Assembly: GCF_003977755.1 (NCBI RefSeq)
Contig: NZ_RQWN01000001.1
Location: 1,380,995-1,444,994 of the forward strand
DNA length: 64,000 bases
Direction: 5' to 3'
DNA from: Haloterrigena salifodinae
Lineage (GTDB): Archaea; Halobacteriota; Halobacteria; Halobacteriales; Natrialbaceae
Both the position numbers and the translations under genes were made by a program. Shown in pieces: positions 3,657 through 7,249 of this stretch (positions within the stretch are counted from its first letter, which is position 1; each line of letters starts with the position of its first letter). The notes under the pieces were generated by a model. That model saw only the letters and a list, made by a program, of their open reading frames with translations, was not told where the DNA came from and ran no database searches.

Positions 3657-4613
3657 ATGAAGCGGTGGCTCCGTGAACGCGTCGACGCTGCCTACGAGGG
3701 GTTGCTCTCGCGGGAGATTTCCGGCGCACCGACCCACGTCGCAGTGATTCAAGACGGGAACCGACGGTACGCCCGCAGCAACGGCGACGACGCTCCCGAG
3801 GGCCACCGCGAAGGTGCACAGACGACCGAACGGGTCCTCGAGTGGTGCCAGGAGATCGGCGTCGAGGAGCTGACGCTGTACACGTTCTCGACGGAGAACT
3901 TCAACCGTCCCGACGAGCAAAACGAGGCGCTGTTCGATCTGCTCTGCGAGAAACTCCACGAGTTCGCGGACGCCGACCGCGTACACGAGAACGGGGTCTG
4001 TATCCGGGCGATCGGCGAGACGGAGATGCTCCCCGACCGGGTACAACACGCCATCGAATACGCCGAACGCCGTACGCAGGAGTACGACCGATTCGTGCTC
4101 AACATCGCGCTCGCGTACGGCGGTCGGTCGCGGCTGCTCGAGGCCGCCCGCGGGGTCGCCGAGGACGTCGAGCGGGGCAACCTCGACCCAGCGGAAATCG
4201 ACGTCGAGGACATCGAACGTCGACTTTACGACCGCCCGATCCGGGATGTCGACCTCATCATCCGACCCGCCGGCGAGGAGCGGACCTCGAACTTCCTGCC
4301 GTGGCACGCCAACGGCAACGAGGCGGCCGTCTTCTTCTGTACGCCCTATTGGCCGGAGTTCTCCAAGACGGACTTCCTGCGGGGGATCCGAACCTACGAG
4401 CACCGCGCCGAGTCCTGGCGACGGAACCGCGCTCGGCGGGCGCTGGCCCTACTGGGCGCCGTCAGCGACGCCGAACTCGCGGAGGCGAAGTCGGTCGTCG
4501 AGCGGTTCCGCGACTCGCTACCGACCGCCGAACAGCCCGATCCGGAGGAGTTAGAAACGAGCCAAAACGAGCAGGGCGACGGCATCGACTCGAACAGTCG
4601 GGCCGCCGACTGA
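3657..4613 (+). CDS. uppS: Catalytic cis-prenyltransferase (undecaprenyl/dolichyl diphosphate synthase family)
   Basis: 318 residues. Condenses isopentenyl diphosphate in cis to make the long polyprenyl diphosphate that becomes the dolichol carrier for N-glycosylation. The P-loop-like motif HVAVIQDGNRRYAR contains the catalytic Asp, followed by TLYTFSTENFNRP. The LIIRPAGEERTSNFLPW segment keeps the diphosphate-binding arginines, and a Glu lies in NGNEAAVFF. The usual C-terminal RxG motif found in homodimeric enzymes (RFG in E. coli UppS) is absent; the chain instead ends in a ~60-residue acidic tail. This resembles the catalytic DHDDS/Rer2 subunit of heteromeric enzymes. A partner candidate lies 470 bp downstream on the other strand (5084-5716). 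Confidence 0.93.
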   Translation: MKRWLRERVDAAYEGLLSREISGAPTHVAVIQDGNRRYARSNGDDAPEGHREGAQTTERVLEWCQEIGVEELTLYTFSTENFNRPDEQNEALFDLLCEKLHEFADADRVHENGVCIRAIGETEMLPDRVQHAIEYAERRTQEYDRFVLNIALAYGGRSRLLEAARGVAEDVERGNLDPAEIDVEDIERRLYDRPIRDVDLIIRPAGEERTSNFLPWHANGNEAAVFFCTPYWPEFSKTDFLRGIRTYEHRAESWRRNRARRALALLGAVSDAELAEAKSVVERFRDSLPTAEQPDPEELETSQNEQGDGIDSNSRAAD

Positions 4614-4703
4614 TCGGCTGCGACCGCCGACGCACTCGCAGTCGCAATAGGGAGCCGCCGCGACCCCAAAAATTTTACCGATATGTGTGGAAAAATAATA
4701 ACC

Positions 4704-5087
4704 ATGGTAGTAGCTGGCAGCGTCGTCGACATCGAGCGGCTCGCACAAGTGACGAATTGCTCGATAGAGGCGGCTGCAACCCTGCTCGGGAGTTCGCGGA
4801 CGCGGATCGCGCTTCGAGTGCTGTCGCGGTGTGACCCGCCGGTCTCGCTCGATCGACTGGCGGCCGACGTCGCCGCGGTCGACGACGAGCGAACCCGGAT
4901 GGCGGTCCGCATCACGCTCGTTCACGCGACGCTGCCGAAACTCGAGGACTACGGGCTGCTCGAGTACGATCTCCGATCCGGAACCGTCCATCTGTCGGGC
5001 CCCCTCGTCGCCCTCGAGGAACCGCTGGGAACGCTGCCGGACGGCGACGACCGCGAGTCGAGCGACGTCCGTGACCGGCGCCGTTAG
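4704..5087 (+). CDS. Winged-helix protein (DUF7344-like)
   Basis: About 127 residues with a helical N-terminal part (DIERLAQVTNCSIEAAATLLGSS) and a winged-helix core: RIALRVLSRCDPPVSLDRLA, then HATLPKLEDYGLLEYD and a short beta wing TVHLSGPL. This is the architecture of the haloarchaeal DUF7344 regulators. An ATG also exists at 4683. The ATG at 4704 is preferred because a TATA-like AATTTTACC at 4671-4679 lies ~27 bp upstream, fitting leaderless initiation there. It sits between the catalytic and the non-catalytic cis-prenyltransferase genes and its 3' end overlaps the latter by 4 bp tail to tail. A regulatory role for these neighbours is inference only. Confidence 0.75.
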   Translation: MVVAGSVVDIERLAQVTNCSIEAAATLLGSSRTRIALRVLSRCDPPVSLDRLAADVAAVDDERTRMAVRITLVHATLPKLEDYGLLEYDLRSGTVHLSGPLVALEEPLGTLPDGDDRESSDVRDRRR

Positions 5088-5716
5088 CGGCCGAACCGAC
5101 GTGAGCGGTTACAATATTCCCGGACGGCCCGCAGGAAGTCCCGCTTGCGGAAGTCCCGCCAGTTGACGTCCGTGAAGTACAGCTCCGAGTAGACCGACTG
5201 CCAGATCATGAAATCCGAGAGCCGCTCGGCGCCGGTCTTGATCACGAGGTCGGGCTCGGAGGGGAACACGAGGTGATTCTCGACCCGCTCGTCGTCGATC
5301 TCCTCGGGCGCCAGTTGTCCGTCCTCGACGTGTTCCGCGAGCGTCCGGACCGCGCTGGTGAACTCGTGTTTCCCGCCGAGACCGATTCCGATGCGAATGG
5401 GCGCTTCCGCCGGCGTCCGATCATCGGGACCGCGGACGGCCACTTCGCGGGGCGCCTCGAGGGTCTCGAGTTCGCGTCGCAGGGCCGGTACCGCCGCGGC
5501 GTCGAGGACGCTGACGTAGACGGTCACCTGGGTGGCGTACTCGAAGGCCCACGCGAAGAAGTCCGTCAGCGTCCCGTAAGCGTCCCGCTCGAGGAGGTCG
5601 CGCTCGGTGATGACGAGCGCGATGTGATCGGGGAATTCGCCGTCGTGGCGACGGATGCGGAGGCTGAGATACTGTTCGTACAGACCCACGGCAGTGAGTT
5701 TCCCGTCCGATCCCAT
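5084..5716 (-). CDS. Non-catalytic cis-prenyltransferase homologue (NgBR/Nus1-like subunit candidate)
   Basis: 210 residues with the cis-prenyltransferase fold signature near the end: LVIKTGAERLSDFMIW, then SELYFTDVNWRDF and RKRDFLRAVREYCNRSRRFGR. The N-terminal catalytic motif is degenerate. Where the catalytic paralogue has HVAVIQDGNRR, this chain reads HIALVITERDL, so the catalytic Asp is replaced by Thr and the Gly-Asn is lost. One diphosphate-binding Arg is Lys. It does end in RRFGR, which carries the RxG motif that in heteromeric enzymes belongs to the NgBR/Nus1 subunit. I read it as the structural partner of the UppS protein at 3657-4613. Alternatively it is a decayed paralogue, but the intact frame and conserved C-terminus argue against simple decay. 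Confidence 0.85.
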   Translation of the reverse strand: MGSDGKLTAVGLYEQYLSLRIRRHDGEFPDHIALVITERDLLERDAYGTLTDFFAWAFEYATQVTVYVSVLDAAAVPALRRELETLEAPREVAVRGPDDRTPAEAPIRIGIGLGGKHEFTSAVRTLAEHVEDGQLAPEEIDDERVENHLVFPSEPDLVIKTGAERLSDFMIWQSVYSELYFTDVNWRDFRKRDFLRAVREYCNRSRRFGR

Positions 5717-5899: not shown

Positions 5900-7249
5900 G
5901 TGACAGCACCTGTTCGGCGAGCAGGCGTGTTTGCAGCCCTCTGTACGCTCGCACTCGCCGTTCCGCTCGGCAACCCGCATGTCGGGGCTGTGATCGCCGC
6001 CGTCGCAGCCCTCGGGGCGCTCGCCGTGACCGACGGGCCGCTCTTCGAACTGCTGGCCTATCCGAGCGACTACGAAGCGGGGCGCCTCTACGGCATCGTC
6101 ACGCTCGTGCTCGCGGGGACCACGCTCGGCCTCATCGCGGTCACGACGTCGATGTCGATCGCGGTTTTCGTCGGGACCGTCCTGCTGGTCGGGTACGGCA
6201 ACCTCGCCGAGCAACTCGCCCACCAGTGGACCGACCGCGACGTCGTCCACACGGCGGCCTTCTGCGTCGTCGCGACCGTCGCCGCCGTCGTCGGCCAGTC
6301 GGTGGCGCGCTCGATCGCCGACGGCGCCGCCTTCGAGTCGCTTTCGGCGGCGCTGCCGACGATGCTCTTCCTCGGGGCGAGCGGCGCGTTGCTGGCGTCG
6401 CTGCTCCGGGACATCCTGTTCGCGAACGACGATCCCGTCGTCATGCTCACCGTCGGCCTCCTCGGCTGGCTGCTCGCGGAGCTCGAGCCGGCGCTGGCCC
6501 TCTCCGGGGGCGAGATCGTCGCCGCGCTCGCGATCACCGTCGCATTCGGCTACCTCTCCTACGCCCTCGAGACGGCCTCGATCGCGGGGATGCTCACCGG
6601 GATCCTGCTGGGGCTGTTGACGATCGTCCTTGGCGGCTACGGCTGGTTCGCCGTCCTCATCTCCTTTTTCGCTATCGGCGGCCTCTCCTCGAAGTACCGC
6701 TACGAAGAGAAGGCTGAACGCGGCGTCGCCGAGGATAACAACGGCGCCCGGGGCAGCGGGAACGTCCTCGGTAACGCCGCCGTCGCGCTCGGGGCCGTTC
6801 TGGGATACGCGGCCAGTTCGGCGACGCTGTTGCCCGGCAATCCAGAACCGAGCCTATTTCTGTTCGCCTTCGCCGGTTCCGTCGCCACGGCGATGAGCGA
6901 CACCCTCTCGAGCGAAATCGGCAGCGTCTTCGAGACGCCGCGGTTGATCACCACCCTCGAGCCCGTCGAACCCGGCACCGACGGCGGGGTCACCTGGCAG
7001 GGCGAGATCGCCGGCGTCGTGGGCGCGACCGTCGTCGCCGGCATCTCCTACGGTCTCTTTGACGCGGTCGCGACCGTCGGCGCGGCGATCATCATCGCCG
7101 CCGGCGTCGTCGGCATGACCGTCGACAGCCTGCTGGGTGCGACCCTCGAGGGACGAGTGCTTGGCAACCAGAGCGTCAACTTCCTCGCGACGCTCTCGGG
7201 CGCGCTGGTCTGTGCGCTGCTGGTCCTGTCGTTTGCCGTGCTCGGCTAA
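5900..7249 (+). CDS. DUF92 family polytopic membrane protein (TMEM19/VTE6-like)
   Basis: 449 residues, GTG start at 5900, with about 12-14 hydrophobic segments. The C-terminal half (from about residue 215) carries the DUF92 hallmark stretches: GMLTGILLGLLTIVLGGYGW, FAGSVATAMSDTLSSEIG, TLEPVEPGTDGGVTWQGEIAG and DSLLGATLEG. DUF92 includes plant VTE6 phytyl-phosphate kinase. The N-terminal half is an additional block of hydrophobic helices that resembles the dolichol-kinase type of membrane domain in general character only. It sits beside two cis-prenyltransferase genes, which makes phosphorylation of an isoprenoid alcohol a reasonable guess. The substrate is not known from the sequence. Confidence 0.88.
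   Translation: MTAPVRRAGVFAALCTLALAVPLGNPHVGAVIAAVAALGALAVTDGPLFELLAYPSDYEAGRLYGIVTLVLAGTTLGLIAVTTSMSIAVFVGTVLLVGYGNLAEQLAHQWTDRDVVHTAAFCVVATVAAVVGQSVARSIADGAAFESLSAALPTMLFLGASGALLASLLRDILFANDDPVVMLTVGLLGWLLAELEPALALSGGEIVAALAITVAFGYLSYALETASIAGMLTGILLGLLTIVLGGYGWFAVLISFFAIGGLSSKYRYEEKAERGVAEDNNGARGSGNVLGNAAVALGAVLGYAASSATLLPGNPEPSLFLFAFAGSVATAMSDTLSSEIGSVFETPRLITTLEPVEPGTDGGVTWQGEIAGVVGATVVAGISYGLFDAVATVGAAIIIAAGVVGMTVDSLLGATLEGRVLGNQSVNFLATLSGALVCALLVLSFAVLG

Follow-up and report, generated by a model that had tools for sequence, protein, structure and literature searches.

A putative heteromeric cis-prenyltransferase in Haloterrigena salifodinae with its catalytic and RxG motifs on two separate, co-occurring proteins

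Genes at the locus

The window, that is, the whole stretch of 64,000 nucleotides of Haloterrigena salifodinae DNA that was analysed, contains two genes whose products are classified as cis-prenyltransferases (cPTs) by NCBIfam as well as by Pfam (family PF01255). The two genes are convergent and separated by 470 bp (4614-5083). The following features were located in and around them:

3657 to 4613, + strand: catalytic cPT subunit with a putative DHDDS/Rer2-like role, 318 aa, with a predicted helical extension at the C-terminus
3753 to 3767, + strand: catalytic DGNRR motif with Asp33 (equivalent to E. coli UppS D26), read from the sequence
4683 to 5087, + strand: DUF7344 gene between the pair (PF24035, 48.5 bits)
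5084 to 5716, - strand: non-catalytic accessory subunit with a putative NgBR/Nus1-like role, 210 aa
5090 to 5098, - strand: C-terminal RxG of the accessory chain (R207-F208-G209), one residue before the protein end, read from the sequence
5606 to 5608, - strand: Thr37 of the accessory chain, at the catalytic-Asp position (MAFFT column of E. coli D26)
5900 to 7249, + strand: DUF92 (PF01940/TIGR00297) membrane protein gene, divergent from the accessory gene, assigned by domain match

In the 318-aa chain, the PF01255 match reaches 225 bits over residues 31-252 and covers the whole family, and in the 210-aa chain it reaches 93.6 bits over residues 106-209 and covers the C-terminal half of the family alone (positions 116-219). 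A match restricted to this half is usual for NgBR/Nus1-type subunits (PMC7839719). An earlier sequence-only reading had reported that the 318-residue protein keeps the catalytic Asp motif and lacks a C-terminal RxG, and both features were confirmed in the open reading frame at 3657-4613 (+): Asp33 is found within VIQDGNRRYAR, and ESWRRNRARR occupies the place of RERRFGG in E. coli UppS, so that no RxG is present. The description of the paralogue 470 bp away, with Thr in place of Asp and an RRFGR end, proved equally correct for the frame at 5084-5716 (-), in which HIALVITERDLL contains Thr37 at the Asp position and SRRFGR forms the end of the protein. By a six-frame search of the window genome (4.96 Mb, 99.6% complete), exactly two PF01255 genes were found, neither with the full motif set; the polyprenyl carrier, if made via the cPT route, must therefore depend on these two genes. 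The DUF7344 and accessory genes share 4 bp at their 3' ends. Its product is probably not part of the enzyme, and in other members of the phylum the pair abuts directly with no intervening gene.

Division of motifs between the two chains

To follow the active-site residues, 112 catalytic and 94 accessory chains were aligned by MAFFT with three reference sequences, those of human DHDDS and NgBR and that of E. coli UppS. Each of the 110 catalytic chains that span the respective positions keeps D26, N28, R30, S71, N74, R77, R194, R200, and S202 (E. coli numbering) as well as the DGNRR motif, and R242 plus G244 (RxG) occur at the aligned position in none of the 112. Accessory chains carry RxG in 93 of 94 cases, the odd one being RKFGK, and every one of the 94 stops exactly one residue past the Gly. 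The catalytic residue set was found in none of these 94 chains, with H43 and N74 missing from all. The Asp position is occupied by Thr in all haloarchaeal accessory chains (46/46), as in human NgBR; outside Halobacteria, the Asp is kept in 12 of 48 accessory chains, but the rest of the DGNRR site is gone. Because the motif split holds over 206 sequences, in the class and in the phylum, it is not a product of chance. The two features that define heteromeric cPTs, a catalytic chain without RxG and a dead PF01255 chain with a terminal RxG, are thus both present. The homodimeric UppS type of bacteria was rejected, since the catalytic site and RxG occur together in none of the aligned archaeal chains. 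A shift of E. coli E213 to the accessory subunit was also considered and dropped, as a two-residue insertion in the catalytic chains makes the alignment ambiguous at this site.

Loss of RxG alone is no proof of dependence on a partner. MM_0014 of M. mazei ends in TLGG without an RxG and yet is active (PMC8131916), and the catalytic chains of the present set have a predicted N-terminal helix of their own as well as predicted C-terminal helices. Both observations would suit a self-sufficient catalytic homodimer with no need for RxG, in which case the paralogue would have a modulating role, perhaps in setting chain length or in attachment to the membrane. This arrangement is nevertheless considered improbable: the persistence of RxG in the accessory chains despite the loss of the catalytic set fits a tail under active-site selection, and the orthologues in M. 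mazei are reported to act as a heteromer (PMC8131916).

Predicted structures were compared with the PDB by fold search. For the catalytic model, human DHDDS chains occupy ranks 1-6 and are followed by bacterial UppS, and for the accessory model the top matches are ordinary cPTs at modest TM, NgBR not being favoured. Residues 208-210 of the accessory tail have pLDDT below 50 in the single-chain AlphaFold2 model; such an unresolved RRFGR tail may be a faint hint of a segment that becomes ordered only on its partner. The C-terminal extension of the catalytic chains varies from 32 to 110 residues among Halobacteria and is predicted to form helices.

Distribution, gene order and origin of the pair

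Co-occurrence over Halobacteria, which the sequence-only reading had named as a check, was almost complete: the accessory gene is present in 292 of 292 genomes and the catalytic gene in 291 of 292, and exactly two PF01255 genes were counted in 281 of the 292. In a sample of the phylum, at least one catalytic gene plus the accessory gene was detected in 58 of 60 genomes and neither gene in the remaining 2, and the pair was again the rule among 41 Methanosarcinaceae-like and 36 Archaeoglobaceae-like genomes. Genomes with a single gene, which if numerous would speak against the pairing, amount to a handful. Five were found (G072, G342, G343, G398, and G349), mostly assemblies of at least 80 contigs. 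G072 (120 contigs) is the sole Halobacteria genome without a catalytic gene, the accessory gene of the fragmented assembly G342 is truncated at a contig end, and G343 and G398 (110 and 80 contigs) each lack one gene. On contig C103 of G349, the catalytic gene is disrupted by several in-frame stops despite an intact accessory gene, reflecting either a decayed copy or poor assembly. No PF01255 gene was found in G298 and G306, two species of one genus, which suggests that the cis-prenyl route to the glycosyl carrier was lost or replaced in this lineage. That the two genes almost always occur together, and are missing together in this genus, is in keeping with an essential partner and argues further against the self-sufficient homodimer.

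Extra cPT copies were observed at three loci, L109 (G002), L108 (G292), and L110 (G309); two are of the MM_0014-like TLGG type and one is a divergent haloarchaeal form (DGHRR, ending in LRRNEGR).

The tail-to-tail orientation was found in all 52 genomes in which both genes lie on one fetched stretch, and many of the linked pairs adjoin without a gap or share up to 54 bp. Convergent linked loci (including L080, L088, L091, L094, L099, and L103) occur in Halobacteria and several methanogen families, and the pair is unlinked in other genomes from many families. As the order is convergent, there is no operon to enforce stoichiometry. Such an order is unusual for obligate partners, and antisense coupling is possible. 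The neighbouring DUF92 gene is present as a single copy in 59/59 Halobacteria and adjoins the accessory gene in most of them, usually in divergent orientation. Linkage of uppS with DUF92 and a lipid-kinase suggestion for DUF92 were published in 2015 (PMC5898192), and its product is probably an enzyme of the polyprenol pathway, putatively kinase-like. Neither dolichol nor uppS is mentioned in the H. volcanii open-issues paper.

The convergent genes, which are not co-transcribed and in many families not linked, and the usual position of the accessory gene beside DUF92 might also indicate that the two proteins belong to different enzymes, the accessory chain pairing with something else or being a relic. 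This is regarded as very unlikely indeed, given that the window genome offers no other PF01255 partner, that the invariant C-terminal motif is unlike the behaviour of a relic, and that the accessory chains are a single conserved group phylum-wide.

In phylogenetic analysis, the accessory chains formed one group (87/77 with the full alignment; 98/95 with the C-terminal half after removal of the RxG columns), as did the catalytic chains (81/77, full alignment). Two separate single groups across the phylum imply that the pair is older than the split of the sampled phylum lineages. The origin trees, for which the sequences from outside the archaea were limited to a single human pair and two bacterial UppS, placed NgBR on the stem between the accessory group and other cPTs with the full alignment (93/95), on a very long branch. 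With the C-terminal half, the accessory chains and NgBR no longer fell on one side of a branch, but the AU test rejected neither this grouping (p 0.268) nor a DHDDS plus NgBR clade (p 0.236 and 0.182). By profile comparison, the archaeal accessory chains are nearer to bacterial UppS, the best of which scored 112-118 bits, than to NgBR, at 46-49 bits. Features common to the archaeal accessory chains and NgBR are the lost active-site loop, Thr-Glu after LVI, and an end one residue past RxG. Descent of the archaeal accessory subunit and NgBR/Nus1 from one ancient dead cPT subunit, with the eukaryotic two-subunit form as an archaeal inheritance, can be proposed tentatively and is open to considerable doubt. 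If true, the eukaryotic two-subunit dolichol-precursor synthase would be inherited rather than a convergent invention.

Proposed function and comparison with known systems

Taken with the universality of the motif split in the class and the heteromeric behaviour reported for orthologous archaeal pairs (PMC8131916), these data support the heteromeric reading: the two proteins very probably constitute one obligate heteromeric cPT that makes the precursor of a dolichyl or polyprenyl glycosyl carrier. The heteromer would extend an allylic diphosphate by isopentenyl diphosphate units to a C50-60 polyprenyl diphosphate, the presumed precursor of dolichyl phosphate, on which the sugars for archaeal N-glycosylation would be carried. 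Of the two subunits, the 318-aa chain would provide the Asp-Mg site, the substrate-binding arginines, and the hydrophobic tunnel; the 210-aa chain, catalytically dead, would dimerise via the conserved C-terminal half of the cPT fold and contribute its RRFGR tail to the partner's active site on the other side of the interface. The motifs, their split throughout the class, the co-occurrence of the genes, and the lack of a further cPT in the window genome are direct observations; assembly of the complex, action of the tail in trans, the product, and the pathway are proposed by analogy with the solved DHDDS/NgBR structures and the M. mazei enzyme.

Heteromeric cPTs were already known in archaea, a point absent from the sequence-only reading, and the window pair is a well-supported further example. 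What is new is the class- and phylum-wide universality of the pair, the phylum-wide motif split, the conserved tail-to-tail order, and the DUF92 linkage. A missing step in dolichol phosphate synthesis may thereby be assigned to a defined gene pair in essentially every haloarchaeon, including tractable ones, and the heteromeric architecture would extend to a whole archaeal phylum. The broad sequence set may also be used to test the archaeal inheritance of the eukaryotic two-subunit enzyme, which is mutated in human disease.

A close likeness is to M. mazei, a member of the same archaeal phylum that uses two subunits for glycosyl carrier synthesis. Three cPT paralogues, MM_0014, MM_0618, and MM_1083, are present in this organism (PMC8131916), and MM_0618/MM_1083 are reported, in the same article citing Emi 2019, as a heteromeric cPT with C45-50 products for glycosyl carriers. 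Sampled Methanosarcinaceae have one catalytic and one accessory type, some also an MM_0014-like TLGG type, and one of them (G346) has exactly one of each of the three; the published heteromer is therefore expected to represent the two families described here. The likeness is at the family level, and the haloarchaeal catalytic chains differ in bearing the variable C-terminal extension of 32-110 residues.

In an Archaeoglobus-group genome of 2,178,400 bp, the catalytic orthologue lies at about 1.09 Mb and an accessory orthologue ending in RRYGR at about 0.64 Mb, with identities to the window proteins of 44% over 241 aa and 46% over 96 aa, respectively. Their positions agree with the gene numbers Af1219 and Af0707 of Archaeoglobus fulgidus (DSM 4304), which we take them to be. 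A J Biochem article of 2022 is said to describe Af1219/Af0707 as a cPT that is heteromeric and probably tetrameric; its authors reportedly regarded the resemblance to the human enzyme as convergent. Compared with the window, the Archaeoglobus genes are far apart, and the catalytic chain has no C-terminal extension.

Human DHDDS/NgBR (6W2L, 6Z1N, 7PAX) and yeast Rer2/Nus1 likewise combine a catalytic chain without RxG and a dead chain with RxG at its extreme end. In the human enzyme, NgBR reaches over the interface with its C-terminus into the active site of DHDDS. There, the RxG Arg together with backbone amides arranges the pyrophosphate site and the Mg site, and D34 of DHDDS binds Mg (PMC7573591). 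NgBR and the accessory chain both have Thr for Asp and share LVITE, whereas NgBR carries a transmembrane region at its N-terminus and has diverged strongly from the archaeal chain. The parallel with DHDDS/NgBR drawn by the sequence-only reading therefore stands for function and motif logic, but the analogy is imperfect in that yeast Nus1 has Asn where the canonical RxG has Arg (PMC7573591, PMC7839719). E. coli UppS has the same fold, catalytic residues, and RxG, but carries both motif sets in one chain.
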